Made by a program: the position numbers and the translations under genes. A stretch of 64,000 nt of DNA from Alphaproteobacteria bacterium (GTDB taxonomy: Bacteria > Pseudomonadota > Alphaproteobacteria > Rhodobacterales > Rhodobacteraceae). The notes below the pieces were generated by a model, which saw nothing but the letters and a program-made list of their open reading frames with translations, had not been told where the DNA came from and did not search any database. The DNA lies in the NCBI GenBank assembly GCA_030429495.1, contig JAUIFH010000008.1, positions 1 to 64,000 on the forward strand, given 5' to 3'. How positions within the stretch are numbered: position 1 is the first letter of the stretch; every line of letters starts with the position of its first letter. This document shows, piece after piece, positions 34,825-51,654 of the stretch.

Positions 34825-34871
34825 GGGGCCTGCGTTGTTCGTTTTCTGCGCCGGAACGCGCGGCGCGCAAA

Positions 34872-34935
34872 TCAGATCGCGCGGCCGCCGATCCAGACAG
34901 CTTTCACCGCACGGTCATCGCCCATCATGATGGTC
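34872..34935 (-). pseudogene. guaD: displaced native 3' end of guanine deaminase (guaD)
   Basis: On the minus strand this reads, in the frame of guaD, TIMMGDDRAVKAVWIGGRAI and stop. The intact guaD at 50332-51654 has TIMMGDD at the matching place. The fragment is therefore the original C-terminal coding end, cut off by insertion of the 15.5-kb element. It has no start and is not expressed as a protein. Confidence 0.88.
34918..34935. repeat. left attachment core (18-bp direct repeat)
   Basis: TCGCCCATCATGATGGTC is identical to 50420-50437. It encodes part of the guaD C-terminus (minus-strand TIMMGD). With one mismatch the match extends 4 bp further left. Integration by the element's tyrosine integrase explains it. 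Confidence 0.88.
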
Positions 34936-34985
34936 ACAAAATGTTTCATGGTCTCATATGGCCTTTAAAATAAGGGTTTTCGGTG

Positions 34986-35018
34986 TGGGAGCAATCGGCG
35001 TGGGAGCGGTATGGGAGC
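34986..35018. promoter_or_regulatory. integrase arm-type site candidates, left
   Basis: Three direct copies of TGGGAGC begin at 34986, 35001 and 35012, 50-80 bp inside the left core. The same heptamer recurs at the right end, as expected of arm-type sites bound by the integrase N-terminal domain. Confidence 0.6.
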
Positions 35019-35406
35019 AATTCCAAAGGAAAGGCCCGCAGCGCGAGCTGCGGGCCTGGAGCAACACGGACAGAGGACCATCGAGCAAGGGAAGCGGCTC
35101 CTCGGAAATCTGCCGTGGCGGAGCGACTGCCGGTTACTCCGCCTTCCCTGACATCATAACCCATGAGGGTCCGTAGCGCAAAGAAGGGACCCTAGCGACC
35201 CGGCGGCTGACCGACCCCTGGGGGCGTTTGGTGGCAGGGTCCGGCCCGTGTTATCCTTCAGCCAGAAGCATCCATAGAGTGGCCCACCCGATGAGGGGTG
35301 GCCCGCCAACCTAGTCCTCCATGACCAAGGTGGCCCAGCCAATACCGGCACGGATGCGGTCGACAGCCCGAGAGGGCGCGTCGGCAAACAAAAAGGGAAG
35401 AAGGCA
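35019..35406. other. gene-free left end of the element
   Basis: This holds an 11-bp stem with GCGA loop (35032-35057, AGGCCCGCAGC/GCTGCGGGCCT) that on the minus strand is followed by TTTCCTTT, so it may stop leftward transcription. An AGGGTCC/GGACCCT hairpin lies at 35166-35193, and a candidate promoter at 35228-35257. Three spaced copies of GTGGCCC (about 35279, 35298, 35330) precede the first gene. I see no ORF with support. Confidence 0.5.
35228..35257 (+). promoter_or_regulatory. candidate promoter of the left element operon
   Basis: TTGGTG, 18-bp spacer, TATCCT. The -35 part lies in the 15-mer GGGCGTTTGGTGGCA (35222-35236), which also occurs at 39750-39764 ahead of the second gene block, again 18 bp before a -10-like hexamer. 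The shared layout argues for a common regulator or sigma factor. Confidence 0.5.
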
Positions 35407-35745
35407 ATGGCCTATTTTCAAGACGACCTACGCGCGATCTGTGCCGCGCTGCCGGAGAGCCTAAAGTTCTCCGCCGACAACACGTTCAACGACGTGCTGA
35501 TGCGCTTTGCCGAGCAACGCCCTGATTATTGGACGCAGCCGGTGTCGCACGAGGAAGCTGCCGCCTTCCTCGGCAAGACGCCGAACGCGCTGGCGATGAT
35601 GCGCAAGCGCGGGGAAGGTCCCGGCGGCTGGACGAAGGCCGCTGGCGGCTACATCTACCCGTCGCGCCTGCACCTCGCCAACTGGGTGGCCGAGCAGATC
35701 GAGCTGGCGAAGCTCGAACCCTCTCAGCGGAGGCTCGCGGCGTGA
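35407..35745 (+). CDS. excisionase/AlpA-like DNA-binding protein
   Basis: This 112-aa protein has a helix-turn-helix-like segment (HEEAAAFLGKTPNALAMMRK, about residues 48-67) and YIYPSRLHLANWV, matching the excisionase/MerR-like fold in which a wing follows the HTH. Such genes in satellites activate excision or transcription. It is the first rightward gene; its stop overlaps the GTG of the next gene. The call is by pattern, not strong homology. Confidence 0.6.
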   Translation: MAYFQDDLRAICAALPESLKFSADNTFNDVLMRFAEQRPDYWTQPVSHEEAAAFLGKTPNALAMMRKRGEGPGGWTKAAGGYIYPSRLHLANWVAEQIELAKLEPSQRRLAA

Positions 35746-36152
35746 ACCAGGTCGACACACCCACCCCCGCCACCGCGCTCCTGCGCTCCCTGGCCGACAC
35801 CGTTGCCAGGATCGCCGAGATGCAGGCCGACGAGGATCGCTTCCGCGCCCGCCAATGGGGCGTCGGCATCCTGGCACCCATGCGCAATCACCGCTTCCGC
35901 GCCGCCGTGCGCGTGAAGAAGGCGACTAGGGCCGCGCTGTTCCATCGCATCATTCAGGCGTGCGAGGCAGGCCAGCTGGCCGAGATCGAGCGCATCGCGA
36001 CCGCCTACCAGGCGTTGCGCGACGACCTGGCACTCGATCCTGGCGACCGCAAGTCGGAGCGCCAGCGTGACATTGGTCGCCGCCGCGACGCCGCCGAGCA
36101 GCTGGTGCTGTCGGCGGTCGAGGGCGAGCTGCGCCACCGTCGCCTGATCTGA
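35742..36152 (+). CDS. unknown element protein, 136 aa
   Basis: GTG at 35742 overlaps the TGA of the upstream gene, with GGAGG before it. The protein is helical and basic in the middle (RFRAAVRVKKATRAAL) with an ERQRDIGRRRDAAEQ segment near the end. I recognise no domain. Its place between the AlpA-like gene and the primase-helicase suggests a replication or regulatory accessory. Confidence 0.65.
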   Translation: MNQVDTPTPATALLRSLADTVARIAEMQADEDRFRARQWGVGILAPMRNHRFRAAVRVKKATRAALFHRIIQACEAGQLAEIERIATAYQALRDDLALDPGDRKSERQRDIGRRRDAAEQLVLSAVEGELRHRRLI

Positions 36153-36214
36153 CCTTCCTGGGCCGCGCCCAAGCGCGGCCCTCCACACCTATCGAGCACG
36201 AAGGACTGCCGACC

Positions 36215-38752
36215 GTGAAACCGAACCCGAAGACCCCGAACGAACACCCTGGCGGCGAGGTGCTGAACCTGCCGCTGCTTCTCCCCGACGAGTACGCCAA
36301 GGCGACGGACATCCGCCTGCGGCTCCTGGAGCAGGGCTACCGCCCGCTGCCGACCGCCGAGAAGGTCGCGTTTCAGAAAGGCTGGCCGACGATGCCGGTC
36401 ACCCCTGACATCGTACGATCCTGGCCGATGATGGCCCCTGGGCTGAAGCCCGCCGTCACGACCGCGATCCAGCTGGAGGGCACGATGCTCGCCATCGACG
36501 TCGACGTGAGCGACCAGGAGGTGGCCGACGAGGTGGAGGACCTGCTGTACGACGAGCTGGGCCAGGAGCGGTTTAAGGACGCGCCCTATCGGCACAGCCA
36601 GGGTGCGAAGTTCATGATCCTCCTGCGCACCGACGAGCCGTACAAGATGTGGAAGACGTCGAAGTACCTGGATGCCGACGGCCAGGATCACATGGTCGAG
36701 GCCTACGGCGGCGGGAGCACCCGTTACTTCAGCTGTTTCTCCGTCCATACCTTTGGCGGCACCATTCCCGGCGACGGGCCTGGCAAGGCTCGCTACGAGG
36801 TCCTGAAGAAGTACGTCTGGGCTGACGGCCCGACGCCGCTCGACACGCGACCGGAGGACCTGCCCCTGGTAACCGTCGAAGAGGTCGACCGGCTGTTGAT
36901 GCGGATCGGCGACCGCTTCGAGGAGCTGGAGCGCGCCGGGCACCACGGCTGGCAGCGCGTCAAGAGCACGCGCCAGGGGGCGTTCGAGGGTGGGGTAGCA
37001 TACGACCTCACCGAGGAGATGACGTTCGAGACAAAGTCAGGGGTGCTGACCTATTACGAGGCCCTAGCGTACGCGATGGACGAGCGCGATGCGCGGTGTT
37101 CCAGCTCGTTCCTGGACGGCGAGAGCCGCAACACCGGCAAATGCCGAATGGCCGTCGTCGGCTCGGTCGCTGACGATGACCTGGCGCTGTCCGTCTTCGA
37201 CCACGAGACCTGGGTTATGCACTACCCGGCGACCTGGGCACCGCGCAGCACCGAAGAGCGGCAAGAGCTTGCAACCTCCCTGGGACGGAGGCTCAGGGAG
37301 CTGGACCTGAGCGATTACGAGGAAGAGGAGCCGGTCAGCGACGAGTTCCGCGCCGAGGTCGAGCACCTGATGGACAACTACGTCTTCTGCGAGAAGAGCA
37401 ACGCCTACCACCGCTTCGGCGGCGATCCGTTCTCGCGCATCCTGGGCGCGGCGATCAAGCAGACCTACGACCTGCGGCTGGAGTACCGGCACAAGGCAGG
37501 CAACGGCCAGACCTACGACAAGGTGACCACGGCGGGCGCGGTGTTCATGGCGCAGGAAGGCAAGATGAAGGCCTGGTTCCCGGAATACGATCCGCGCCAG
37601 GAACCTGGCACCCTGTTCTTCAGCGACTTCACCGGACATGTCGTCATGAACGCCTGGAACGGCCTCCCTGACCTCGGCGAGGCAGACCCGCACTGGGTCG
37701 ACCTGATCGAGAACCGCTTCCTGCCGCACCTGATCCCCAGCGACCGCGAGCGCGACTTCGTACTCGACTGGCTGGCGACGAAATACGCGCGGCCCTGGGA
37801 GCGCATGTCGGCGATCCTGTTCCTGGCGGAGAACGTCAGCGGTACGGGTCGCGGCACGCTCTTTGAAATCCTGGACGGGGTCTTCGGCACGAACGCCCAG
37901 CTGCTGAGCGAGCATCAGCTCTTCAACGACCAGTTCAACGCCTGGGCCGTCAGCAACGTGCTGATCCTCTGCAACGAGCTGGGGAAGTCGAGCCGCTGGC
38001 AAAGCAAGGAAGAGACCTACGGCAGGCTGAAGGAGCTGGTCGACCCGACGAACACGCAGGTCTCGGTGCGGCACATGGGCGTCGCTTCGGCGAAGGCGCT
38101 TACCTTCACCTCGTTCATCATGGCGACGAACCGGGGCGACGGCCTGCGGCTCGACTACGAGGACCGGCGCACAGCTGTCATCACGAACGGCGGCAAGCTG
38201 ACTGGCGCGGAGGCCTGGGCCGACGAGCTGATGGACGAGAAGCGCGACCACGGCGTCAAGAAGCTGGCGGCGGCGATGGCCGCGATCCTCCGCGACCGGG
38301 ACATCAAGACGGCTGCGAGCGAGCTGGCGACGCCGCCGAAGTTCTCCGGCTGGCACACGATGATCGAGAAGGCCTCGGGGTCGATTGACCGCGTGCTTCG
38401 GGAGATCGGCGAGACTTACCAGGGCCGGGCGACCATCTGGACCAAGAAGGCCTTCAAGGACCTTGTGTGGGATCAGGCAAAGGACGAGCTGCCCAGGGGC
38501 GCGAACAAGACGACGGTCATGCAGGAGATCGAGAAGCTGGTCGGCGAGAAGGCCGAGCAGCTCGGGCTGTACCTGTTGAAGGCCAAAGTGAAGGTCGGGA
38601 TCGGCACAATCGAGATCGTCACGAACCTCGGCGGGGCAGAAAATCTTCCCTCGGCGGTCGAAGATCGCGAGGCGATCCTGGTCGAAGGCGGCGCGTTGAC
38701 GAAAATGCACGCGCTGGCAGCGGCCTTGGGCGGGCGCGGAGAGACCTCATGA
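36215..38752 (+). CDS. bifunctional primase-helicase (AEP-like N-terminus, DUF5906-type helicase)
   Basis: This 845-aa protein has an N-terminal prim-pol-like part (LAIDVDVSD, acidic metal site near residue 94; AKFMILLRTDEP near 131). A central-to-C-terminal DUF5906-like SF3 helicase follows, with P-loop SGTGRGTLFEIL near 542 and NVLILCNELG as Walker B-like near 585. It should start replication of the element. The P-loop reads GTGRGT where GTGKGT is expected, an Arg for the key Lys. The stop overlaps the next ATG (ATGA). Confidence 0.82.
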   Translation: MKPNPKTPNEHPGGEVLNLPLLLPDEYAKATDIRLRLLEQGYRPLPTAEKVAFQKGWPTMPVTPDIVRSWPMMAPGLKPAVTTAIQLEGTMLAIDVDVSDQEVADEVEDLLYDELGQERFKDAPYRHSQGAKFMILLRTDEPYKMWKTSKYLDADGQDHMVEAYGGGSTRYFSCFSVHTFGGTIPGDGPGKARYEVLKKYVWADGPTPLDTRPEDLPLVTVEEVDRLLMRIGDRFEELERAGHHGWQRVKSTRQGAFEGGVAYDLTEEMTFETKSGVLTYYEALAYAMDERDARCSSSFLDGESRNTGKCRMAVVGSVADDDLALSVFDHETWVMHYPATWAPRSTEERQELATSLGRRLRELDLSDYEEEEPVSDEFRAEVEHLMDNYVFCEKSNAYHRFGGDPFSRILGAAIKQTYDLRLEYRHKAGNGQTYDKVTTAGAVFMAQEGKMKAWFPEYDPRQEPGTLFFSDFTGHVVMNAWNGLPDLGEADPHWVDLIENRFLPHLIPSDRERDFVLDWLATKYARPWERMSAILFLAENVSGTGRGTLFEILDGVFGTNAQLLSEHQLFNDQFNAWAVSNVLILCNELGKSSRWQSKEETYGRLKELVDPTNTQVSVRHMGVASAKALTFTSFIMATNRGDGLRLDYEDRRTAVITNGGKLTGAEAWADELMDEKRDHGVKKLAAAMAAILRDRDIKTAASELATPPKFSGWHTMIEKASGSIDRVLREIGETYQGRATIWTKKAFKDLVWDQAKDELPRGANKTTVMQEIEKLVGEKAEQLGLYLLKAKVKVGIGTIEIVTNLGGAENLPSAVEDREAILVEGGALTKMHALAAALGGRGETS

Positions 38753-39165
38753 CGCGCCATTTTCTGCCCCGTGGACGGATAGTTTTCCATAAAATAAAGG
38801 CCTCTGACCGGGGCAGGTTTTTTAGTGAGACAACGTCAGATTTTTTAGTGTGTGAAATATTCAAAAAGAAGAATACATGCCACACACTAAAAAATTCTGG
38901 AGGAGGCGAAGAAAATTTCTGCCCCGTGTTCTGGACGCGCCCGCACGCCGTCCTGGAAGACGCCCGAGCGCCGCGAAATCACGGTGGGCGCGGTTTGGCT
39001 GCGCATGGATCAGCAGGGTGCGAGGTAGCGAGGAGTGGGGTGCTCGAATACCTCATTTCTCGACAGGGCGTTAGCCACTGCCCTGGCACCCGAGGCGTCC
39101 CCGATCAGTCACATGGAATACCCCAAGAAAACGGTCTGAAACATGGCCGCGTCGGTGCCGCATGA
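38749..39165 (+). CDS. possible 138-aa protein spanning the candidate origin
   Basis: The frame opens with ATGA overlapping the primase-helicase stop and closes with its TGA overlapping the ATG at 39162, so it is coupled at both ends. The product begins MTRHFLPRGRIVFHKIK and has a Phe/Lys-rich stretch (CEIFKKKNTCH) encoded by the AT-rich repeats. No domain is recognised. The repeats could equally be non-coding origin DNA, so existence is uncertain. Confidence 0.4.
   Translation: MTRHFLPRGRIVFHKIKASDRGRFFSETTSDFLVCEIFKKKNTCHTLKNSGGGEENFCPVFWTRPHAVLEDARAPRNHGGRGLAAHGSAGCEVARSGVLEYLISRQGVSHCPGTRGVPDQSHGIPQENGLKHGRVGAA
38760..38928. other. candidate replication origin (AT-rich repeat cluster)
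   Basis: This AT-rich island follows the primase-helicase gene. It has a perfect 15-bp inverted repeat (ATTTTTTAGTGTGTG at 38840-38854 and its complement at 38881-38895, 26-nt loop). A further TTTTTTAGTG copy begins at 38818, and a 13-bp direct repeat TTTCTGCCCCGTG lies at 38761 and 38916, with an inverted partial CGGGGCAG at 38809. Repeats plus an AT-rich stretch beside a primase-helicase is the P4-like origin layout. Confidence 0.6.
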
Positions 39166-39602
39166 GCGGCGAGCGCGGCCCCTACCTGCCCAAGGTCCCG
39201 GAGACCTACGCCCCGCTCACCGCCGATGAGCTTGCATCGTACGAGCGCAGCCCGGCGCACTTCCTGCGCGAGGGCAGGCGGCAGTCCTGGATGCTCCAGC
39301 TGGCCGAGAACCACGGCCTGGTGCCGATCCTGGGCAGCAAGCCTGCGCTGATCCGCCTGGTGACGCTGCTGATGCCTGAAGACTTCTGGCCGGGCTTCAC
39401 CTTCACCGGGCGCTACGTCGACCGCCAAGACGACCGCGACCTGGCGCTCCGCCTCCTGGGCAGTGAGACGCGCAAGGTCGAGGTCAGGATCGGCGGCTTC
39501 ATCGCCACGCTCCAGGTGAAGGCCTCCACCCGCGTCCAGGCGCTCGACCACCTGGAGAGCCTGGGGATCGAGCCGACGAGGCCCGATTGGCGGCACCGTT
39601 GA
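39162..39602 (+). CDS. unknown element protein, 146 aa
   Basis: ATG at 39162 overlaps the preceding stop. The protein starts MSGERGPYLPKVPETYAPLT, has HFLREGRRQSWMLQLAENHG and an alternating beta-like C-terminal part (KVEVRIGGFIATLQVKAST). No family is recognised. It ends the first block; a 218-bp intergenic follows with a TCTCGCC/GGCGAGA hairpin and inverted TGGGAGC-like motifs. Confidence 0.65.
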   Translation: MSGERGPYLPKVPETYAPLTADELASYERSPAHFLREGRRQSWMLQLAENHGLVPILGSKPALIRLVTLLMPEDFWPGFTFTGRYVDRQDDRDLALRLLGSETRKVEVRIGGFIATLQVKASTRVQALDHLESLGIEPTRPDWRHR

Positions 39603-39755
39603 GCCGTTCTGCTCCCGCCTGTGCTCCCATTCTCGCCATGCGCTGACGGCGAGAAACGCTGGAGTACCCTAACCATCTGGCAAGGCGTCGGAAAAAATTC
39701 CCACGCTGACCCGATCTGACCCAGTCAGTCATCATCATGCAGGATGCTCGGGCGT

Positions 39756-39785
39756 TTGGTGGCACCCCCTGGTGAGGGGTAAAAT
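39756..39785 (+). promoter_or_regulatory. candidate promoter of the terminase block
   Basis: TTGGTG, 18-bp spacer, TAAAAT. The -35 part lies in GGGCGTTTGGTGGCA (39750-39764), identical to 35222-35236. It is 35 nt upstream of the gene at 39821. Confidence 0.55.
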
Positions 39786-39820
39786 GTGATGGACACAACG
39801 CTACCCCGAGGATGCGAACT

Positions 39821-40087
39821 ATGACCACGACGACCACAGAGACCGACCGGAAGCCCCGGCGCTCGTTCGCGGGCGAGAACAACCCGAGCGCCGTCTACAC
39901 GGCTGCCCAGGTCGCCCAGGCGAAGCTGGAGCTGATCGAGGCCGAGTGCGACGTCGTGCTCGCCCCTGGTGAGCTGGATCGCATTGCGGCGCTCACTGGC
40001 ATCCGCCGCGACAGCCTCGTGCGCATCGCCCAGGGCACCGCCTGGGCGCACGTCCAACCCGCTACCCGCAAAGGAGACAACGAATGA
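39821..40087 (+). CDS. unknown element protein, 88 aa (HTH-like)
   Basis: ATG at 39821 has GAGG 8 nt upstream. The C-terminal half GELDRIAALTGIRRDSLVRI resembles a helix-turn-helix, so it may be a DNA-binding regulator or packaging-linked protein. Its stop overlaps the next ATG (ATGA). It is first in the terminase block. Confidence 0.6.
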   Translation: MTTTTTETDRKPRRSFAGENNPSAVYTAAQVAQAKLELIEAECDVVLAPGELDRIAALTGIRRDSLVRIAQGTAWAHVQPATRKGDNE

Positions 40088-40407
40088 CCCAGAGACTTCC
40101 CAACCCCGATCTTGTCCGTCGGCTTCTCGACCTGGACGGCGACGACATCGTCTGGCGGCTGACGCGCCGCAAGGCCACCGTCCCCGCGCTCTTCGAGCAG
40201 AAGACCGACGTCGTGCTGATCGGCTGGCTGGCCGCCCATGCCGATGACGTGCGCCACGTCCTGGCGACGGGCGAGTGGCCGCAGCAAGCCTTCGAGCGCT
40301 CCGAGTTCCATGTGCGGCGTGAGCAGCACCAGATGCAGTTCATCCGCATGGACCGCGAGACGGCCCGCGCCGAACAGCTCGCCGCCCAGGAGCTGGAGGT
40401 CGCCTGA
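40084..40407 (+). CDS. unknown element protein, 107 aa
   Basis: This small acidic-basic protein (DDIVWRLTRRKATVPALFEQ, HVRREQHQMQFIRMDRE) has no recognised domain. It is coupled to the upstream gene by ATGA and lies one base before the putative small terminase. Confidence 0.6.
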   Translation: MTQRLPNPDLVRRLLDLDGDDIVWRLTRRKATVPALFEQKTDVVLIGWLAAHADDVRHVLATGEWPQQAFERSEFHVRREQHQMQFIRMDRETARAEQLAAQELEVA

Positions 40408-40408
40408 C

Positions 40409-40984
40409 ATGCCGAAGCAGCCCGCCAACCACCACGCCAAGCTCAAGGCGACCCGCGCTCTGATCCACGAGGCCGACCCTGTCGCCTTCGCGATCAACGC
40501 CATGATGGGCCTGCCTGCGCCGAAGCGTGACATGGCGGGCCGGATCATCGGCGAAGAGCCTGCGCTCGACCACGAGAAGCGCGTCAACATCGCCCTGGCG
40601 CTCGCCAGGAAGATCATGCCCGACCTGGCCGCGCAGCAGATCGACCTGACCAGCGGCGGCGGCGAGATCGGCTTCAAGATCATCCTGGGCGACGGCGTGC
40701 TACCGCCTGCATCGGTCGACGACGCCCAGGTGATCGAGCACGAGGCCAGCAGACAGATTGAGGGTGATGCCGGTGTCAGCGCCCCTCAGATCGCGGACCA
40801 GGAGGGTGTATCCTTTCCGCCCGACGAGGACCTGGTCCGCGATCCCGAACCTGTCAGCAATCCTGCACGCACGCCCGCTGAACCCCAGCGCAGCAAGGCC
40901 GCAGCACCCGTTCGCGAAACACCCGACCTTCCGCCTGGCAGCCCGCCCAATGCACGCCGCCGTGTGCGCAGGAGAACAACATGA
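40409..40984 (+). CDS. possible terminase small subunit
   Basis: This 191-aa protein sits directly before TerL and overlaps it (stop within ATGA). The N-terminal part is helical (HHAKLKATRALIHEADPVAF, KRVNIALALARKIMPDL) and the C-terminal third is Pro/Ala/Arg rich and ends RRRVRRRTT, a basic tail suitable for DNA binding. Position and shape suggest TerS; sequence similarity is not evident. A GGAGG site precedes the ATG. Confidence 0.45.
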   Translation: MPKQPANHHAKLKATRALIHEADPVAFAINAMMGLPAPKRDMAGRIIGEEPALDHEKRVNIALALARKIMPDLAAQQIDLTSGGGEIGFKIILGDGVLPPASVDDAQVIEHEASRQIEGDAGVSAPQIADQEGVSFPPDEDLVRDPEPVSNPARTPAEPQRSKAAAPVRETPDLPPGSPPNARRRVRRRTT

Positions 40985-42417
40985 CCGACGCCTTCACGCT
41001 CAACTACACGCCGCGCCCGTGCTTCGCCGAGGCGCACCGGCTCATCTCGCTGAAGTCCACCCGAGAGCTGCACATCGGCGCGTCCCGCCGCCTGGGCAAG
41101 ACCGTCCTGGCCTCTGCCGTGGCCGCGATCCGTGCAGTCTCGCGCACGAGCGACGTGGCCATCATCGCCCCGAGCCTCACCCAGGCGCTCAACATCGGCT
41201 GGCAGAACGTGCTGGACCGCGTGCGCCATGTGCCGGGCGTCGACCCGAAGAAGGGCGAGGCCTGCATCTATGTCCCCGCCGCCGACGGCGGCATGAGCAC
41301 GATCCGCTTCTTCGCGGGCACCGACGACGGGTCGGCCTCCGGCGTGCGTGGCTACGGCTTCGACCTGGTGATCGTCGACGAGGTCGCGCAGGTCGGAGCT
41401 GACACATTCTACAACGCCATCATGCCGACGCTCACCGGGCGCACCGACGCGCAGCTGATCACCATCGGGACTTTTCGCGGCGTAGACCTGATGTACCAGC
41501 TGCACGAGGACGCCGACCCCGCCGCCGGTGTCCACAGCATCATCCTGCCCGCGTCGACCAGCGGCGTGCATGACCCCGCCGAGCTGGCCCAGATCGCGAA
41601 GAAGATGGGCGGCTGGAACAGCCCCGGCTTCCAGCGCGAATACGAGGCCAACCGCTACGTCACAGACGACTTGGCCTTCATAGACCAGGCCTTTGTCCGC
41701 GAAGCGCAAGCCCGCACGCTCCCCGAGCACACCCGCCGGGAGTACCGCGACGCCTATCCGACCATCGTCAGCTGCGATCCCGCGCCGACATCAGACCGCA
41801 CCGTCATCGTCGTACGATGTGGCCCCGCCGTCCTGGACCATGTCACGCTGCAGGGGCCGACCGTCAATGAGGTCGCCTACAAGCTCCTGGCCGTGTGCAG
41901 GGAATATGATGCCGACGCGCTCTTCATCGACCGTGGGGCGGGCGGGCAGGGACCGGCGATCATCGACATCTGTACCAACCTGGGCCTGTTGGTCCACGGC
42001 GTCGACTTCGGCGGTAGGGCCAGCGATCCCGAGGCCTTCGCCAACGTCCGCGCCGAGATCATCAACCGCGTGAAGGACTGGGTCGAGCGGCCCGACGCGA
42101 TCCTACCGCCGGGCGAAGACATCCTCCGCGAGATGTCTGTCGTACGATACGAGGTGAACGCCTCCAACCGGCTGCAGATCGAAGGCAAGAAGTCGATCCG
42201 CAAACGCCTGAAGATGTCGACCGACTTCCTGGACGCCTTGGCCGCTGGCTTCGCCGCGAGCGTCACGCCGCGCAGCTTCTACGACCGCGACGACCGCGTG
42301 ATGGTCAAGCCGCGCTCGCCGTCGGGCGACCGATACCAGTCTGACTTCGACGGCCTGCGCAACCGCCGCCAGGCCAGTGTGGTCCTGAACGAGGAGTATG
42401 AACCCCATGCCGACTGA
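40981..42417 (+). CDS. phage terminase large subunit (TerL)
   Basis: This 478-aa packaging ATPase-nuclease has the TerL P-loop SRRLGKTVLAS at residues 35-45 and Walker B with catalytic Glu DLVIVDEVAQ at 128-137. The motif III-like TIGTF lies at 161-165. RNase H-like nuclease aspartates lie in VSCDPAPTSD (D266), FIDRGAGGQG (D317) and TDFLDALAAGF near 418. It is complete. No portal gene follows. It should cut and pump DNA into proheads made by a helper phage. Confidence 0.9.
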   Translation: MTDAFTLNYTPRPCFAEAHRLISLKSTRELHIGASRRLGKTVLASAVAAIRAVSRTSDVAIIAPSLTQALNIGWQNVLDRVRHVPGVDPKKGEACIYVPAADGGMSTIRFFAGTDDGSASGVRGYGFDLVIVDEVAQVGADTFYNAIMPTLTGRTDAQLITIGTFRGVDLMYQLHEDADPAAGVHSIILPASTSGVHDPAELAQIAKKMGGWNSPGFQREYEANRYVTDDLAFIDQAFVREAQARTLPEHTRREYRDAYPTIVSCDPAPTSDRTVIVVRCGPAVLDHVTLQGPTVNEVAYKLLAVCREYDADALFIDRGAGGQGPAIIDICTNLGLLVHGVDFGGRASDPEAFANVRAEIINRVKDWVERPDAILPPGEDILREMSVVRYEVNASNRLQIEGKKSIRKRLKMSTDFLDALAAGFAASVTPRSFYDRDDRVMVKPRSPSGDRYQSDFDGLRNRRQASVVLNEEYEPHAD

Positions 42418-42613
42418 TCATCGTACGACGATACTCGACCACCTGGCCGACCTGAACCGCAGCCACGACCCGGCGCGGATGACGGAAACGCGCTCGCCTG
42501 ATGGCAGCCGGTATTCCCGGCGAAGCTCCAGGCGCGACCCGACAGAGGCCGACTTCGAAGCCGCCCAGGACGCCGAGGCCGAGACCTTCTACCGCCAGCG
42601 CTACGGCGACTGA
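42407..42613 (+). CDS. unknown element protein, 68 aa
   Basis: ATG at 42407 has GAGGAG 10 nt upstream and overlaps the TerL end by 11 bp. The peptide is very polar (SRYSRRSSRRDPTEADFEAA) and probably disordered. No family recognised. Confidence 0.55.
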   Translation: MPTDHRTTILDHLADLNRSHDPARMTETRSPDGSRYSRRSSRRDPTEADFEAAQDAEAETFYRQRYGD

Positions 42614-42641
42614 CCCCAACCCTGAACCGTGAGGAAACGAC

Positions 42642-42977: not shown

Positions 42978-43109
42978 CCGCAACAGCGCCCTCCGAAGAC
43001 GCCCAACTGCCAGGGGGCAATCGCACCTGGCGACGTGGCAGATCGAGGGCAAAGCCAGCGGGCGGAGACGTGCAAGCCGCCCGCTGGCCCAACAACCAGG
43101 AGAAGACCG

Positions 43110-43499: not shown

Positions 43500-43500
43500 A

Positions 43501-43788: not shown

Positions 43789-43804
43789 CTTCGATGAATT
43801 GCAC

Positions 43805-43834
43805 TTGCTACTCTTTGTGAGCAAAGCCTACAAT
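43805..43834 (+). promoter_or_regulatory. candidate sigma-70 promoter of the SIR2 gene
   Basis: TTGCTA, 18-bp spacer, TACAAT. The predicted start is only a few bases before the ATG at 43844, matching the lack of a Shine-Dalgarno (near-leaderless mRNA). A dyad CTTTGTGAGCAAAG (43813-43826) lies between the boxes and could be an operator. Confidence 0.5.
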
Positions 43835-43843
43835 TCATTTAAC

Positions 43844-46800
43844 ATGAAGTTTTTCTCGGACGGCCCATCCATTCCCGATGTTCTACTGGAGCGCTGTGAC
43901 GCCGGTAGGGTCGTTTTTCTGTGCGGCGCTGGAGTTTCCTTCAACTCCGGAATGCCTACCTTCCTTGGCCTAACAGAGCATGTAATTGAATTCTTTGATC
44001 CACCGAGTGATTCACAGATCATGGCTGCATTTTTGCCTTGGCTTGAGAAAGACTCTGCGGCCAATGTCCCGTTGGATCAAATCTTCAACCTATTGCACCA
44101 AGAATACGGGCGCGAAGAGGTCAATGCGCTAGTAACAGAGCGGTTGTTGACACCTCCAAAGTCGAAAACAATTGGCCACGAACATAGTTTAATTCGAAGA
44201 ATATCGTCCAACCAGAATGGTGTTCCGCAAATCGTGACAACCAACTTCGATCACTTGTTCGAACACGGTAGTGGATCGGCTGATATTCCCATTCACATTC
44301 CTCCGGCCTTTCCCGATCTTGTTTTCGGATCGCCAGTTGATGGGATAACCTATTTGCATGGGCGACTTGTGTCGCCTGATTCATCCGACCACCCATACGT
44401 GCTCAGTAGTGCTGACTTCGGTCGAGCCTATCTTTCCGAAGCATGGGCCACAAAATTCATTAGTGGCCTCCTTGAGAGATACACGGTCGTTCTCGTCGGC
44501 TACCAAGCAGAAGACCCTCCGGTGAAGTACTTGCTGCAAGGTCTAAATCATGACGGACAGTTCGATAGGACGCGACTATACGCATTTGACCGAGGGCTTT
44601 CTGAGGACATTGAAGCGAAATGGCGGGACCGGGGTGTCTCGGCAATAGCGTATCGGGATCACGAACACCTTTGGAAAACAATGGAAGCTTGGGCAGATCG
44701 TGCCGATGATCCCAGGGCTTGGCGGTCGAAGATCGTCCATTCGGCTGGTGGTGATCCAAAGTCGATGTCTGCACACGAACGAGGGCAGGTTGCTCACGTG
44801 CTACGTTCAGTCCAGGGCGCGAGGCTATTCGCTGATGCCGATCCGTTGCCGCATCCGGAGTGGGTTTGTGTTCTTGATGCGTTTTCCCGAAATGCAAAGA
44901 AAAGCAAAGACTACGGTGACAATGTGGAGGTATTTGAGCCGTCTCTGGTTTACGGCTTGGATGACGACGTTGGACCTGTCAGTGATGAGGATTTCCGGAG
45001 GGGTATCAGAAATGATAATTTGATCGAATGGAGGCATGGCGACGATAACCCGCCGGAGTTTCATCGACTTGGTGGTCGCCAAGTTGAGGGCCGAGAAGCC
45101 CTGCCTGTAAGGTTATGGCACCTCATCAGATGGATTGGGAAGTCAATCAGCAGCCCTACCGTTGCTTGGTGGGCAGTTCGCCAGTTTGGACTACACCCAC
45201 GTTTAATTGACCATATCGACTGGCACCTAGGGCAAAACGCGAAGCTCGATGACAAATGCCGTGACGTCTGGAACCTAATATTGGAGTTCCATCGCGACCC
45301 ACGGAACCGTCAGTGGGATGGTAACTGGTTTGATCTAAAGAGGCGACTAGCCGCCGAAGGGTGGACGCCGAGTGTCCTCCGAGAGTTCCGCCGATTGACG
45401 CAACCGAAGTTGGTAATCAAACGACCTTTCGGCCTACACGAGAATAAGCCGCCAGTGTCCGACTGGCCCGAGCTGCGGTACGAGGAGATTGGTCAATTCT
45501 CTGTCGAGTTTCTGGATCGCCACAATGAACAGCTTGGCGTACAAGATGGAGACCTGCCTGCTGTTTTTAGAATCCTGGAAGATCAACTAATTTCTGCTTC
45601 CGGAATGCTTTCCGATATAGGAGTTTCGTATTTTGAAACTCCCACTTGTTATCCCGGGCGCGAATCTGATGGAGGGGAGCAGCACCATAATTCTGCTGGT
45701 GAGCCGTTTATTCAGTTCACCCAGCTATTTGATAATCTCACCAAAGTAAATTCGTCTCTGGCAAAGGCTCATGCAACGAATTGGGATCATAATGACGAAT
45801 ATTTCTTCCGAAAATTGAAACTCTATGCGCTGGCAAAGCCCGACTTGTTCTCTCCGGATGAGGCAGCTTCTATCCTCGCGTCGCTTAGCCAAGAAGTTTT
45901 CTGGGACATCAATGTCGTTCGAGAGTTACTGTTCGCGATTGTTGATCGTTGGGCAGAGTTTTCAGACCCAAGTAAGGAAGCCCTCGGCAATCGTATCCTT
46001 GCCGGTCCAGATCAAGCGGACCACTGGCCGATTGAAGACTACCCAGGTCATCGAGACCGTTTCGTTGCAAGATATGGGAGATACTTGCAGCTCAACGGTT
46101 GTGCCTTGCCGGAAGAAGTTGCCGCCGAGCTTGATAAGGTTATTGCCAGGGTTCCTGATTGGACGGATCAGCGTGCCACTTCGACCGTTACAGATCGAGG
46201 CGTGCATGGCGGAACTGTTCAAGTGGATGACACCCCCGATGAGATTGCTGAAGTTCCTGACAGTGAAGTCATAGAGCGTGCTCGAAATGCCTCCCGACGC
46301 GAGTTCGCGAGCTTGATTGAGCGAAGACCTTTCCAGGGGCTGGTCACGGCAAGCCCAAGGAAAGCATTAGCAGCCGTTTCGATTGCTACAAGGAAGGGCG
46401 AATTTCCAGAGTTTGCTTGGGAGGCGCTGATCGAGAGCTTTCCAGATGATGTCCCGCCGAGGCTCTATCGCCTTTTTCTAGAAAGGTTGGCGCGACTACC
46501 TGAGGATGCGATTCGAAAGCTAAATCACGCACTTGGTCGTTGGTTAGAGAGGAATTTACGCGCCTGCCTTGAGTTCGATGAGGGCCTTGGTTGGAAAGTA
46601 TTCGACCACATACTTGATGGCCTCCTAAGTGGAGGTCCCGAAACCGTCGAAAGCGGAATTGGCCAGATGTTTCAAGGTGGGGAGGTGATCCAGAGATCGC
46701 GGCGAACCTACGAACACGCGATAAACGGACCAATAGGAATGTGCGCTGAAGCGCTTTTGAAGGCAGTGCCGGGAGACAAGCAGAAGGCACATTCTTTGAT

Positions 46801-47662
46801 ACCGGCGAACATCAAGAGCCGGATAGAAAGATTGTTTGCGGCCAAGGGAGAAGGAGCAGACCACGCAGTCTCAACGTTTTTTAGTAGATTGAATTGGGCC
46901 ATGCACGTCGATCCGGATTGGACTACCGAACGCCTCCTGCCAATGCTTGCGTTTGAACACCCGGCAGCAGAGCCTGCTTGGAACGGATTTCTTTATAGTA
47001 GGAACAATCCGTCGAAAGATGTCGCCAAGGCCATCAAACCTCTATTGCTTGAAGTTTTCCCTTGGATAGAGCAATTTGAATGGGGTCGGACCAGCGTAGA
47101 ACGCGTGGCCAGTTGGATCGCTTGGCTGTACATCTTCCGCGCCGGAGAGGAAGACGGACTGAACAGTCGGGAGATGCGCGGCGCTTTGCGTGCAATGAGC
47201 GATGGCGCAAGAAATCAGCTAATCTTCTGGCTTGGAAAGGTTGGAGCGAGCCCTGACAACGACGACGGTTGGAAACGGCTGGTCATTCCATTCATCAACG
47301 AAGTTTGGCCCCGAGAGAGAGTCTACAGGACTAACGCGTCTGTAACTCGTTGGATCGGCTTGCTCGACGATACGATGGACGATTTCCCATCGGTTTTGGA
47401 GGCCGTCAAAAAGTTTCTTGTTCCGATAGAAAGCGATGGCATTCCTCTTTATCGCTTCACGCGGGATGTCGATGGGGAAGAACCCATTACTACGAAGTTT
47501 CCCAAAGAAACACTTGATCTGTTGGATGCAATTACTCCGACGAAACTATCGCGCCCGCCATATGAGTTGCCGAAGATTTTGGCTTTGATCGAGGAGTCCG
47601 CTCCGGAACTCACCAACAAATCCAAGTACCTTCGATTGATAGATTTGGTGGAACGAACATAG
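43844..47662 (+). CDS. SIR2-domain protein, probable anti-phage defence effector
   Basis: This 1272-aa protein begins with a SIR2-like NAD-binding domain (about residues 1-235): FLCGAGVSFNSGMPTF at 25-40, VTTNFDHLFE at 131-140, YLHGRL with the catalytic-type His at 170-175, and VLVGYQAEDPPVKYLL at 216-231. The remaining ~1000 residues are helical with no motif I can name; the size and layout resemble long defence-associated sirtuins and SIR2-DUF4020-type proteins. Such proteins degrade NAD+ on phage infection. The gene is clearly AT-richer than its neighbours, so it is recent cargo. ATG at 43844 is chosen; a TTG 15 codons earlier is unlikely. Confidence 0.82.
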   Translation: MKFFSDGPSIPDVLLERCDAGRVVFLCGAGVSFNSGMPTFLGLTEHVIEFFDPPSDSQIMAAFLPWLEKDSAANVPLDQIFNLLHQEYGREEVNALVTERLLTPPKSKTIGHEHSLIRRISSNQNGVPQIVTTNFDHLFEHGSGSADIPIHIPPAFPDLVFGSPVDGITYLHGRLVSPDSSDHPYVLSSADFGRAYLSEAWATKFISGLLERYTVVLVGYQAEDPPVKYLLQGLNHDGQFDRTRLYAFDRGLSEDIEAKWRDRGVSAIAYRDHEHLWKTMEAWADRADDPRAWRSKIVHSAGGDPKSMSAHERGQVAHVLRSVQGARLFADADPLPHPEWVCVLDAFSRNAKKSKDYGDNVEVFEPSLVYGLDDDVGPVSDEDFRRGIRNDNLIEWRHGDDNPPEFHRLGGRQVEGREALPVRLWHLIRWIGKSISSPTVAWWAVRQFGLHPRLIDHIDWHLGQNAKLDDKCRDVWNLILEFHRDPRNRQWDGNWFDLKRRLAAEGWTPSVLREFRRLTQPKLVIKRPFGLHENKPPVSDWPELRYEEIGQFSVEFLDRHNEQLGVQDGDLPAVFRILEDQLISASGMLSDIGVSYFETPTCYPGRESDGGEQHHNSAGEPFIQFTQLFDNLTKVNSSLAKAHATNWDHNDEYFFRKLKLYALAKPDLFSPDEAASILASLSQEVFWDINVVRELLFAIVDRWAEFSDPSKEALGNRILAGPDQADHWPIEDYPGHRDRFVARYGRYLQLNGCALPEEVAAELDKVIARVPDWTDQRATSTVTDRGVHGGTVQVDDTPDEIAEVPDSEVIERARNASRREFASLIERRPFQGLVTASPRKALAAVSIATRKGEFPEFAWEALIESFPDDVPPRLYRLFLERLARLPEDAIRKLNHALGRWLERNLRACLEFDEGLGWKVFDHILDGLLSGGPETVESGIGQMFQGGEVIQRSRRTYEHAINGPIGMCAEALLKAVPGDKQKAHSLIPANIKSRIERLFAAKGEGADHAVSTFFSRLNWAMHVDPDWTTERLLPMLAFEHPAAEPAWNGFLYSRNNPSKDVAKAIKPLLLEVFPWIEQFEWGRTSVERVASWIAWLYIFRAGEEDGLNSREMRGALRAMSDGARNQLIFWLGKVGASPDNDDGWKRLVIPFINEVWPRERVYRTNASVTRWIGLLDDTMDDFPSVLEAVKKFLVPIESDGIPLYRFTRDVDGEEPITTKFPKETLDLLDAITPTKLSRPPYELPKILALIEESAPELTNKSKYLRLIDLVERT

Positions 47663-47694
47663 CGGGGCCAAATGCCCCTAGCCTCCTAGTCCGC

Positions 47695-48366
47695 CTAGTC
47701 GAATTTCAGATGCCAGGACCCAAGGTTGGTCTCGTGCCAGGTTCCATCGCTGTGCTCGGCAGGCTTGGTGCGCCCGGTGAAGGTCACCTGGGGGATTGGG
47801 CCGTCGGGACGAAGGTGCTGGAAGGGATCGACGCCACCGGGCTTATACGCCGTCTTGGGCATCGGGACTGGCTCAGGCGTAGGCTCCGGCGCGGGCATCG
47901 GCTGTGGCTTTGGTGCCAGCTGTTTCAGCACCTCTTCGACGCGCCGCCGCTCTTCCAACTGCAGCGAGACGGCCTCCAGGTCGGCCAGCTCAGAGAGCAA
48001 CGCCTGCCGTCGGTTCCTCGCGTTGTCCCGGGGCGTCACGACCCGGAGATTGCTGGGCCGATTGTCGGAGGGGTCGTGGTTCACATGGTCGATATGGAAC
48101 TTTCGCGGTGGCCACTTCCCGAGCGTGACCGCGACGATGAAGCGGTGGGAGTAGCTGGGCTTGTCGCCGTGCTGGAACCAAAGGTACTCGCGGTCATCCC
48201 GGTTCGCCTTCCCGATGGGTCTGTCCCCCTCCACCGTCCCAGCGAGGTACTCGAACGACGTGGCGCGGATAACATCTTCCAGGCTTGGGTAGGGTATTTC
48301 GTGCGGCAGCTCGGTCGCGTAGTCGCCCGCCAGCACGGACTTGACGTATTCCACATCCTTCATCAT
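47695..48366 (-). CDS. HNH endonuclease
   Basis: This 223-aa protein carries an HNH motif HIDHVNHDPSDNRPSNLRVV (about residues 89-108), the HNH_3 type common in phages. A Pro-rich linker (PQPMPAPEPTPEPVPMPK) and a C-terminal tail follow. It may be a homing, restriction-like or packaging nuclease. GAGGAGG lies 9 nt before ATG 48366. It is convergent with the SIR2 gene and lies downstream of the integrase on the same strand. Confidence 0.8.
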   Translation of the reverse strand: MMKDVEYVKSVLAGDYATELPHEIPYPSLEDVIRATSFEYLAGTVEGDRPIGKANRDDREYLWFQHGDKPSYSHRFIVAVTLGKWPPRKFHIDHVNHDPSDNRPSNLRVVTPRDNARNRRQALLSELADLEAVSLQLEERRRVEEVLKQLAPKPQPMPAPEPTPEPVPMPKTAYKPGGVDPFQHLRPDGPIPQVTFTGRTKPAEHSDGTWHETNLGSWHLKFD

Positions 48367-48463
48367 CGGCACCTGCCTCCTCACCGAGGATGGTAGAACC
48401 GAGGGAGAGTATAGGCAACGCCGCCCGAAGGCCGCGCTGCATCATCGTATGCCTGAAGGTCAG

Positions 48464-49753
48464 TCAGATCAGGTCGTCGCCCTTTGCGTTAACTCGGTCC
48501 AGCTTCTCCTCCTCCGACGCGCTGTCGCGGACGTAGTGGCGGATCAGGGTCGCGACGTCCTTGTTGCCGATCATGAAGCCGATCTCGGTCGTCGTGAGCT
48601 TCTGCTCGATGTGGTACTGCGTCACCCGGCTTGCCTTCAGGTCGTGGATCGTCAGCCTCGGGTCGATCTTGGCTTTCTCCAGGGCCAGCTTGTGGACGTC
48701 GCGCAGCGTCGTCGTCGAGAAGGTGCCGAAGACCAGGTCGCCGTCGCCTGCCTTCTCCTCGGCCTCGCGCCGCGCCTTGACGCGCTCCAGGATCGGCAGC
48801 GCGGCCTCGGGCAGCTTCATCGTGTGACCGCCCTTCTTGCGTTCGTCGCGCGTCCAGTCGCGGGTCTCCCAGTCGATGTCGCCCCAGGTCGCCTGGTACC
48901 AGTCCTGCTTCCTGGCGGCGCAAAGGTACGTCAGGCGGAGGAAGTCGCACTTGTCCTCTACCGCCTCCCTGGGACGGCCTGTGTCCGCGCCCTCGGCCAG
49001 CTCGATCTCGCGCAGCGCGTCGAAGTAGCGTGGGCGCTGCTCGGCGGTCAGTACCGGCTTCTCCTCGCCGTTCTTCCGCTCGTCGGTCAGGAAGAACCCG
49101 TCGGCCAGCTCCATCCCCTTGAAGACGTCGGCATTGACCGTCGGCTGGGTGCGCTTCGCGTACTTGAGCACGGTCGGCAGCAGCGACCGCGCCTTGAGCG
49201 CTGTCGTCGGGCCGAAGTTGTCGCGGATGTAGGCCATCAGCTTCTCGCCGTCGGTCGTGGTCAGTTTCGATAGCGGCCTGTTGCCCCAGACCTTTTCGGC
49301 CCGGTCGATGGCGTCCTGCAGCGCCCCCTCTGTGCCCTTTCCCTTGCCGCGATTGATGTAGGGCTTGTTCGCGGCGCGGTGCGCCAGGTACGCCTCGCCC
49401 GCCTCGCGGATCGTAGTCTTCGCCTGGGTCGTCGATAGGCCGGTGGACTTGCCTCCGTCGATGACCGTGCGCGCCTCTGCCCGCAGCTGGGGTAGGGAGG
49501 CACCAGCGGCCAGCCAGGCCTTCAGCTTGTGCAGCGACTGTTTCGTGGTCTTGCCGTTCTCCAGGCGGTACTGGACCCAGATCGCGCCGTCGCCCGAGGG
49601 CGCGACGCGCACACCCAGGCGACCGCCGCCGGGGCCGTCGCCCGAGAACCCGCCGTCCCAAATGAAGTACGGCTTCTCTTCGCCCTTCAGCTTCGCCAGG
49701 TCCTCCTTGGTGCTGAACCGGCGTACGCCTCTTTCGTCAACTGTGATCGCCAT
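48464..49753 (-). CDS. int: tyrosine integrase (P4-like)
   Basis: This 429-aa tyrosine recombinase has an N-terminal arm-binding region of the P4 type (DUF4102-like, GRLGVRVAPSGDGAIWVQYR), a core-binding domain and a catalytic domain. Catalytic box I Arg is in CAARKQDW (R281), the His in IHDLK (H370), and the nucleophile Tyr in LIRHYVR (Y407). The second Arg of HxxR is Lys (K373), and the late His/Trp position appears as Asn (N397). It catalyses integration and excision at guaD. AAGGAGG precedes the ATG. Confidence 0.9.
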   Translation of the reverse strand: MAITVDERGVRRFSTKEDLAKLKGEEKPYFIWDGGFSGDGPGGGRLGVRVAPSGDGAIWVQYRLENGKTTKQSLHKLKAWLAAGASLPQLRAEARTVIDGGKSTGLSTTQAKTTIREAGEAYLAHRAANKPYINRGKGKGTEGALQDAIDRAEKVWGNRPLSKLTTTDGEKLMAYIRDNFGPTTALKARSLLPTVLKYAKRTQPTVNADVFKGMELADGFFLTDERKNGEEKPVLTAEQRPRYFDALREIELAEGADTGRPREAVEDKCDFLRLTYLCAARKQDWYQATWGDIDWETRDWTRDERKKGGHTMKLPEAALPILERVKARREAEEKAGDGDLVFGTFSTTTLRDVHKLALEKAKIDPRLTIHDLKASRVTQYHIEQKLTTTEIGFMIGNKDVATLIRHYVRDSASEEEKLDRVNAKGDDLI

Positions 49754-49754
49754 C

Positions 49755-50114
49755 TCAGTTGCCCTCCTTCGCGCGCATCGCCGCGATCCGCGCTGCACGT
49801 TCCTGGAAATGGTCGCCGCCGCCGCCCAGCATGTTGCTGCTTTCCGCGAAGCGGACGAACCGAGGGCGCTCGATGGAGGTCGGCAGGCAAGCCGCCGTCG
49901 GCCAGGACAGCGGACCAGCCGGAGCGGGGAGCGCCGGTGCGACCGTCACGGCAGCGACGCTGGTCGCCAGGAAGGTGCGGCGGTCCATCTCGGTCGGCTC
50001 GCTGGTCAGCCGGTCGGCGGGGCCGGTGTCGCCGCGCCCCAGGGACTGGAGTGCCTTCAGGATGTCGCGCTTGTCCTTGCGCGCCTGCTGTCGGGAATAA
50101 CTCTGATCGGTCAT
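49755..50114 (-). CDS. small protein with internal Tat-like motif, next to the integrase
   Basis: This 119-aa frame is preceded by AAGGAGA and ends 1 nt before the integrase ATG, so it is co-expressed and holds the integrase ribosome site. It starts MTDQSYSRQQARKDKRDILK and contains MDRRTFLATSVAAVTVAPA, a twin-arginine-like signal, from about residue 43. Either an internal start makes a Tat-exported peptide, or the likeness is accidental. An excision-control role is possible from position. Confidence 0.6.
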   Translation of the reverse strand: MTDQSYSRQQARKDKRDILKALQSLGRGDTGPADRLTSEPTEMDRRTFLATSVAAVTVAPALPAPAGPLSWPTAACLPTSIERPRFVRFAESSNMLGGGGDHFQERAARIAAMRAKEGN

Positions 50115-50259
50115 GGTCGTTCTCCTTTGCGGCTCAGCGCCGCCGCATCTGGCCATTTGGCCGAACCACCTTTGGAGAAGGTTGGTGGATGCGGGATCGT
50201 CCCCGCATCGCTCTGGATGCACCGCCTATGTACAGGAAGGCGTCTTGCCTGGCAATTCA

Positions 50260-50293
50260 TGGGAGCGTCTATGGGAGCAAAACCCTGCTCCCA
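50260..50293. promoter_or_regulatory. integrase arm-type site candidates, right
   Basis: TGGGAGC occurs at 50260 and 50272 and inverted (GCTCCCA) at 50287, 120-160 bp inside the right core. Palindromes CTGACAAGTCAG (50295-50306) and ATGGTCACTCGACCAT (50309-50324) follow, candidate excisionase or regulator sites. GATGCGGG/CCCGCATC at 50188-50209 forms another hairpin. Confidence 0.6.
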
Positions 50294-50331
50294 TCTGACA
50301 AGTCAGCAATGGTCACTCGACCATGAAAACA

Positions 50332-51654
50332 TCAACGTACGATGTTATTTTCTATATTTTGCAGAGACTTGACCTTCATTGACCGGCCAGCGACATAGAC
50401 GTCGACGATGCTTCTGTCGTCGCCCATCATGATGGTCGGAAAGAGCGCCTCCCAGATATCGCCGGCGCGCGTGGAGCGCTGCGATATTGCAGGGGTCGAG
50501 GCAAGGTCGATGATCGCGAGGTCGGCCTCCAGCCCGGGGGAGAGGTTGCCGATCTGCCCGTCGGCGCGGAGCGCCCGGGCCGCGCCGGCGGTTGCCAGCC
50601 ACCAGAGTTCCGCCGGGTGCAGTGCGCGGCCGCGCAATTGCGCGACCTCGTAGGCGGCGGCCATCGTGCGCAGCATGGAGAAGGAGGAGCCGCCACCCGT
50701 GTCGGTGGCCAGCCCGATCCTGTGGCCGGCCGAGGACAGCCCGTCCATGTCGAACAGTCCCGAGCCGATGAACGTGTTCGATGTCGGGCAGTGAATAAGG
50801 CTCGCGTCGACCTCGCGCAGCCGGTCGATCTCGCGCGGTTCGAGATAGATCGCGTGGCCGAAGAGCGCACCGGCACCGAGGAGTCCGTGCGCCTCGTAGG
50901 TATCCAGATAGTCGCGCGCCGTCGGGAAGAGCGATCTGACCCAGGCGACCTCGTCGGTCTGTTCCGACAGGTGGGTCTGCATGAGGCAATCGGGATGTTC
51001 CCGCCAGAGCGCGCCGATCGCCTCAAGCTGTTCCGGCGTCGAGGTGGGCGAGAAACGCGGGGTGACGACATAGGACAGGCGGTCGACCCCGTGCCATTCC
51101 CGCAGGAGCCGCTTGCTGTCGTCGTAGGCCGACCGGGCGGTGTCGGTCAGCCCGTCGGGCGCATTGCGGTCCATGCAGGTCTTGCCGGCATAGCTGCGCA
51201 GCCCGCGCCGGTGCGCCTCGGAGAAGAACGCGTCGACGCTTTCGGGGTGGATCGTGCAGTAGGAACAGACGCTCGTCGTGCCGTTGGCGAGCGTCAGCTC
51301 GAAATACCGCGACGCGATTTCCTTCGCATAGGCAAGATCGGAAAATTTCATCTCCTCGGGGAAGGTGTAGGTGTTCAGCCAGTCGATCAGGCGCTTGCCC
51401 CAGCTCGCGATCATCGCAGTTTGCGGATAGTGGGCATGGGCGTCGACGAAGCCCGCCGAGATCAGCGCGTCGCCGTAATCCGTCACCCGGGCATGCGGAT
51501 GCGCCCGGCGGAGATCGTCGGCCTCGCCCACGGCTGCGATCCGGCCGGCATCGATCAGCACGCCGCCGCGCGCGGAATGCCGGGCAGTGCCAAGCCCTTC
51601 GGTCATCGGATTGCCGGTGAATCGGAGCGTCTGCCCGATCAGGAGGTCCGCCAT
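50332..51654 (-). CDS. guaD: guanine deaminase with element-encoded C-terminus
   Basis: This 440-aa zinc amidohydrolase converts guanine to xanthine. Metal and active-site motifs are DAHAHYPQTA near residue 69, QTHLSEQTDE near 225, GHAIYLEP near 262 and DTGGGSSFSM near 315. Its last 27 codons (after MMGDD) lie inside the mobile element and read SIVDVYVAGRSM then an Asn/Ile-rich tail. The native tail, left at 34872, reads AVKAVWIGGRAI. The frame is kept and the protein is 14 residues longer. Start ATG 51654 follows AAGGA. Confidence 0.9.
   Translation of the reverse strand: MADLLIGQTLRFTGNPMTEGLGTARHSARGGVLIDAGRIAAVGEADDLRRAHPHARVTDYGDALISAGFVDAHAHYPQTAMIASWGKRLIDWLNTYTFPEEMKFSDLAYAKEIASRYFELTLANGTTSVCSYCTIHPESVDAFFSEAHRRGLRSYAGKTCMDRNAPDGLTDTARSAYDDSKRLLREWHGVDRLSYVVTPRFSPTSTPEQLEAIGALWREHPDCLMQTHLSEQTDEVAWVRSLFPTARDYLDTYEAHGLLGAGALFGHAIYLEPREIDRLREVDASLIHCPTSNTFIGSGLFDMDGLSSAGHRIGLATDTGGGSSFSMLRTMAAAYEVAQLRGRALHPAELWWLATAGAARALRADGQIGNLSPGLEADLAIIDLASTPAISQRSTRAGDIWEALFPTIMMGDDRSIVDVYVAGRSMKVKSLQNIENNIVR
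50420..50437. repeat. right attachment core (18-bp direct repeat)
   Basis: This is identical to 34918-34935. It lies within the guaD coding sequence and marks the point where chromosomal guaD passes into element DNA. Confidence 0.88.

Follow-up and report, generated by a model that had tools for sequence, protein, structure and literature searches.

How can a gene go on being read to its end when a mobile element has settled within its last codons? This question is raised by the guanine deaminase gene, guaD, in a 64,000-nucleotide stretch (hereafter the window) of contig JAUIFH010000008.1 from a member of the Rhodobacteraceae, where an exact 18-bp repeat at 34918–34935 and 50420–50437, with a spacing of 15,502 bp, bounds a 15.5-kb island at the 3' end of guaD. 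Very probably, a satellite-like island was integrated in guaD by a tyrosine integrase, with its own attachment site (attP) supplying an in-frame substitute for the end of the gene and the native end being displaced. An earlier interpretation, made from the sequence alone (the sequence-only reading), had placed the 18-bp core in the coding end of guaD and had noted that the DNA past it differs while encoding a comparable tail; both points were confirmed, the two core copies being exact and the two tails readable from the sequence.

The core repeat and the two ends of guaD

The repeat is the longest one between the two island ends, as no word of more than 18 bp is common to 34701–35100 and 50201–50700. 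Its copy at 50420–50437 (minus strand) is the attachment core at the junction of the hybrid guaD (50332–51654, minus strand), which encodes a guanine deaminase of 440 aa, identified by model TIGR02967 (497.9 bits, cut-off 375.4) and by a structure model; the best plasmid-borne match of this protein is from Paroceanicella profunda (59.8%). Through this core, the hybrid gene reads IMMGDD-RSIVDVYVAGRSMKVKSLQNIENNIVR and stops at 50332–50334, the element-supplied C-terminus with its stop codon occupying 50332–50419 (minus strand; identified by translation and the tail profile described below). The displaced core at 34918–34935 (minus strand, TCGCCCATCATGATGGTC on the plus strand) is remote from the body of guaD and reads IMMGDD-RAVKAVWIGGRAI, with a stop at 34872–34874. 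The displaced native 3' end of guaD, IMMGDDRAVKAVWIGGRAI with its stop, thus lies at 34872–34931 (minus strand), and is of native type according to its translation, the relatives and the tail profile. The element tail is 14 residues longer than the displaced one. At the displaced copy, four further bases upstream of ATCATG match guaD before the sequences diverge. Joining the flanks in silico with a script gives a GuaD of 426 aa with a native-type tail.

Which of the two tails is native was judged from related genomes. A search of 61 related genomes at E 1e-100 or better gave GuaD in 35, the window genome among them, and 29 relatives (L004–L032) were compared at the guaD locus. In all 29, DDR leads into A and then a stretch of two to five variable residues, with G in ninth position, and the displaced tail is alike, while the element tail (SIVDVYVAGRSM) occurs at none of the 29 loci. 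An 8-oxoguanine deaminase gene directly follows guaD, in convergent orientation and at a distance of –8 to 960 bp, in 24 of these relatives, and an MgtE-type transporter gene is conserved upstream in 27; the former was not found in the remaining five, nor the latter in the remaining two, in the flank examined (at most 1.5 kb). Both neighbours are present in the window, where the transporter gene, identified by family match and neighbourhood, lies upstream of guaD (51784–53166, plus strand) and the island separates guaD from the 8-oxoguanine deaminase gene (33416–34756, plus strand; model match and neighbourhood). It follows from the tails of the relatives and from the split deaminase neighbourhood that the displaced tail is the native one, and that the present tail of guaD is derived from the island. 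The sequence-only reading had pointed to related genomes as the place where it could fail; the long tail without any element was seen in none of the 29, and the displaced tail matches the type that ends their uninterrupted genes. Two marks of an integrative element, a flanking direct repeat and an uninterrupted site in relatives, are present. Long tails are not unusual per se, since counted from R they comprise 26 residues in L019 and 36 in L032, versus 27 in the hybrid; the 14-residue extension is peculiar to the element of the window.

Parallel cases in two further genomes

A codon-degenerate pattern for IMMGDD, which mutated cores or lost contigs escape, was found in 274 of 394 genomes of the family. 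Five of them (G000, G173, G397, G142 and G146, from a table read by eye) have more than one copy. The second core of G142 lies at a contig end (L103, C168:1–260) where the 3' end of guaD is repeated in inverted orientation, probably as an assembly artefact. That of G146 is one stretch seen twice in the 99-bp overlap of two contigs and not an occupied site; the fork, 60 nt past the core start, adjoins a local repeat, and the locus showed no island gene.

Searching the family genomes with the integrase of the island (E 1e-30 or better) gave a match in the window genome and in G173. Outside the window genome, none was found in 22 genomes of the genus (E 1e-10) or 390 of the order (E 1e-20), and among 61 genomes around G173 (E 1e-20) the integrase was found in G173 only. 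The G173 integrase is about 70% identical to that of the window and lies directly beside a guaD ending in RAVKQVFVAGKAMLQ, an element tail of 15 residues, which is the native length. The body of this guaD is on contig C27, the last 55 bp of which are exactly the first 55 bp of the integrase contig, C13. The core is 21 bp long in this genome; the C27/C13 overlap ends at its last base and a third contig, C53, starts at its first base, so that the end of C27 and the start of C53 fall exactly at its two edges. C53 carries the native tail, RAVRDVWIAGKRALR, at its end and towards the 8-oxoguanine deaminase gene; an identical tail, likewise towards that gene, is found in the congeners G689 and G690. 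Exact contig overlaps of this kind arise where a short-read assembler meets a fork, and for this reason the G173 reads probably held both the guaD–island and the guaD–native join, that is, occupied and empty guaD; a mixture of strains would be expected to give the same picture. No far end of the G173 island could be located. As the rest of C13 looks like ordinary host genes, this island may be short or rearranged. Transposase-like fragments, judged by eye, follow the integrase on C13 (L040).

The second parallel case, G397, was missed by the integrase search of the family and revealed only by a search with the terminase (E 1e-20), which matched the window genome and G397; the integrase counts are therefore lower bounds. 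The two terminases are 68% identical. The guaD of G397 (tblastn, about C11:396239–397516) ends in RAVVAVYVGGALVNI, an element tail of 15 residues, two longer than the native one; the core near guaD is at C11:397454, and 44.2 kb away from it the displaced native tail, RAIRATWVRGKKV, lies isolated at C11:441613. The island, of about 44 kb, has, after guaD, a small open reading frame (ORF), an integrase and a pair of genes resembling the anti-phage gene Dsr1, and further on homologues of the terminase, of the ORF preceding it, of two small ORFs and of the primase of the window island. Its integrase is 26% (tblastn) or 31% (alignment) identical to that of the window and scores 24.1 bits against PF00589, below the Pfam cut-off of 27.1. 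An IS66 transposase match was also found in this island, and one of its proteins weakly matches a head maturation protease family (E 0.00015); among the ten G397 proteins of that scan, no other head, portal or tail family besides the terminase was found. The cargo of G397 (L069, L067; C11 about 400–433 kb) has model matches to Dsr1, Tmn, a GajB-like protein, a DrmD-like helicase and a type IIG-like methylase. All three occupied guaD sites, those of G173 and G397 belonging to other genera than that of the window, thus combine an in-frame element-supplied 3' end with a displaced native end.

Origin and meaning of the look-alike tail

The proposed mechanism would begin with recombination, by the tyrosine integrase, between the attP of the island and the IMMGDD-coding core (ATCATGATGGGCGA and its neighbours) close to where guaD ends. 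Immediately beyond the core, attP would supply in-frame codons that stand in for the final beta strand of GuaD, together with a stop codon, so that the hybrid gene would remain a complete GuaD frame once the island is integrated. The native end would be severed from the gene and left on the far side of the island, from where exact excision would bring it back. What is observed is the repeat, the hybrid and displaced tails, the conserved uninterrupted locus in relatives and the two parallel cases, to which the action of this particular integrase at guaD would be added. Candidate arm sites for the integrase are offered by the heptamer TGGGAGC. The window has 11 copies of it, and six of these form two clusters of three, about 51–83 and 127–160 bp inside the cores (34986–35018, plus strand; 50260–50293, two on the plus and one on the minus strand). 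Of 1000 simulated end pairs, 2 held a 7-mer at least 5 times in total, with at least 2 copies per end.

The likeness of the element tails to native ones was measured with a profile of the first 12 residues of 63 distinct native tails, taken from the loci examined, a subset of the 274 genomes. The element tails score 15.0 (window), 21.8 (G173) and 25.8 bits (G397), and the native tails 8.6 to 36.6 bits when each is left out in turn. Among 477,524 six-frame background 12-mers, 11, 9 and 6, respectively, score at least as high, and these counts are upper bounds since the background includes true guaD tails. Stretches of G016, G008 and G013 were used for background sequence only. An earlier profile of 32 tails gave 13.2 (window) and 14.3 bits (G173), with 7 and 5 of 364,386 background positions as high.

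Such a likeness could be a passive one, arising if attP resembled guaD past the core only through DNA recognition by the integrase, with no need for the protein. Integrases do depend on a match between att sequences, and within the core the identity is complete, but from the R codon onwards element and native tails share only 18 of 39 nucleotides in the window, 20 in G173 and 16 in G397, and yet the open frame, the stop and the native residue pattern are kept in all three, which makes this explanation unlikely. Residue identity is also low (4, 7 and 6 of 13, respectively); the tails agree in frame, stop and residue pattern rather than in sequence identity. Of the mimicry and extension proposed in the sequence-only reading, the extension and a fit beyond chance stand, while the mimicry does not reach to the identity of the residues.

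It has also to be considered that the look-alike tail is translated into an inactive or altered hybrid enzyme, the island acting as a switch for the integrity of the gene. Such switches are described for other elements in PMC10111431, the hybrid tail is low within the native score range, and its end residues are of low model confidence (the last ten average a predicted local distance difference test score, pLDDT, of 43 in AlphaFold2). AlphaFold2 places a strand at 416–421 in the hybrid as well as in a native relative, and the E. coli GuaD structure 6ohb aligns through residue 426, its end, GDDRSIYRTYVDGRLV, being close to the element tail of the window. Since frame, stop and pattern are kept in three of three cases despite the 16–20 shared nucleotides, selection for a working tail is indicated, and a switch seems quite improbable. 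The claim that integration preserves the host enzyme is accordingly supported as to reading frame, profile fit and predicted fold, from which we infer that the hybrid GuaD would be active. Lastly, it is hardly credible that the 34872 tail is a pseudogene remnant of a duplicated or decayed second guaD, with the island boundary a chance match, for although the family genome G023 holds two strong GuaD homologues, the likeness to guaD upstream of the displaced core ends after four bases, the remnant lies in the conserved guaD/8-oxoguanine deaminase neighbourhood, and the arrangement recurs in G173 and G397.

Several observations weigh against integration with a working substitute tail. An occupied guaD is apparent in only three of the 274 genomes with the core pattern. 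The fit of the hybrid tail is weak, its 15.0 bits being above only 4 of the 63 native tails, and with the 32-tail profile the element tails of the window and G173 fall below every native one (17.1 to 37.7 bits, natives not left out). Because both structure models drew on alignments of native relatives, the predicted hybrid is biased in favour of the native fold, and the support from the fold is weak. The TGGGAGC simulation was chosen after the repeats had been seen, and in the repeated-word test of the G397 ends no 7-mer was repeated at both. Excision and GuaD activity in the window genome are themselves inferred.

Integration of an island with a substitute end is nevertheless the reading we retain. 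A wider version of it finds somewhat more in its favour than against: a family of satellite-like islands bearing defence genes would have the 3' end of guaD as its dedicated attachment site among the Rhodobacteraceae, with integrases as little as 26 to 31% identical. The attP tails would then be functional GuaD C-termini shaped by evolution on the islands rather than near copies of the tails they displace, leaving purine salvage intact in many hosts.

Known systems and the genes of the island

In E. coli, icd is the site of two prophages, phage 21 and e14. They share with the island of the window a tyrosine integrase, a housekeeping protein gene as target, an in-frame attP replacement and a gene that stays readable. 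They differ from it in the guaD target, the divergent look-alike tail and the satellite-like island with its defence-type gene. PMC10111431 gives the supply of a gene end by the element as a rule, with icd named among the targets, and an identity block of up to about 250 bp at icd-type sites, compared to 18 to 21 bp at the guaD islands. The phage-inducible chromosomal islands (PICIs) in fis and hpt covered there are, like the present island, satellite-type islands in chromosomal protein genes; they are enterobacterial and use other sites, and the window island carries large-terminase and Dsr1-like genes. In many cases islands reconstitute the genes they enter, according to PMC12884075, in the main text of which neither 'guaD' nor 'guanine' appears. 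The remark that guaD is not a familiar integration site agrees with the open literature searched, where no description of it was found and one paper names guanine deaminase simply as a gene, most subscription papers being outside the search. As the element-supplied replacement is a known rule, the mechanism is not new; only the guaD site and this island family look new, and the unusual feature is the degree of divergence of the supplied tail from that of the host. The list of attachment sites gains a purine-salvage gene, and the guaD islands would allow a clean test of the idea that mobile elements, when they displace part of a host gene, evolve its substitute at the level of the protein and not of the DNA. 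Two IMMGDD cores with a displaced tail could also serve as a signature in the search for defence islands.

Fifteen ORFs of the island were scanned against PHROGs and Pfam. None of them matched a capsid, portal or tail family, and nine lacked any match or had no more than a signal-peptide match below threshold. With integrase, primase and large terminase, the island has the gene content of a PICI-like satellite. The description of the island as a satellite is borne out to this extent; it is plausibly a phage satellite, judging from its genes, and its packaging would depend on a helper.

The tyrosine recombinase (48464–49753, minus strand, 429 aa) was identified by phrog_1 and PF00589 (33.6 bits, cut-off 27.1) and has its homologues beside guaD in G173 and G397. 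R281, H370, R376 and Y407, which we take to be catalytic, are invariant in the three. No further relatives were confirmed in genome or viral contigs with alignment queries or the G397 integrase, and no homologue was found in phage or plasmid records. One candidate in the genome contigs (L033) was weak (45% over 53 residues) and had no guaD match there, and a single weak match in viral contigs was not confirmed by the alignment searches. The terminase large subunit (40981–42417, plus strand) was assigned by the PHROGs and Pfam scans and its G397 homologue; an alignment search gave no match in viral contigs and 89 in phage records, all below 60% identity (best 29.1%). The ORF overlapping its gene (40409–40984, plus strand), conserved in G397 and without family match, could by its position encode the small terminase subunit. 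The same scans identified a primase-helicase (DUF5906; 36215–38752, plus strand) and an HNH endonuclease-like gene (47695–48384, minus strand), and a small ORF at 35407–35745 (plus strand) is without family match.

The cargo gene at 43799–47662 (plus strand) encodes a SIR2-domain protein similar to anti-phage Dsr1, matching the PADLOC model with 294.6 bits and NCBIfam NF041818 with 391 bits. The latter is far below the curated cut-off of 1400 bits, and the gene is therefore a Dsr1 relative and not a confirmed member. Its GC content is distinctly below that of its surroundings, and a Dsr1-like pair also follows the integrase in G397.

The stretch 49700–50450 showed no promoter-like or terminator-like pattern, and read-through from guaD into the integrase gene is only an idea. 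Between these two genes lies a small ORF (49755–50114, minus strand; 119 aa from ATG, or 155 aa as listed from GTG at 50222), the start of which, Y[ST]RQQAR.[DE]KR.I, is conserved in all three guaD islands while the rest is divergent, suggesting a candidate excision factor. It also contains a twin-arginine-like stretch, which matches the Pfam family TAT_signal below its cut-off.

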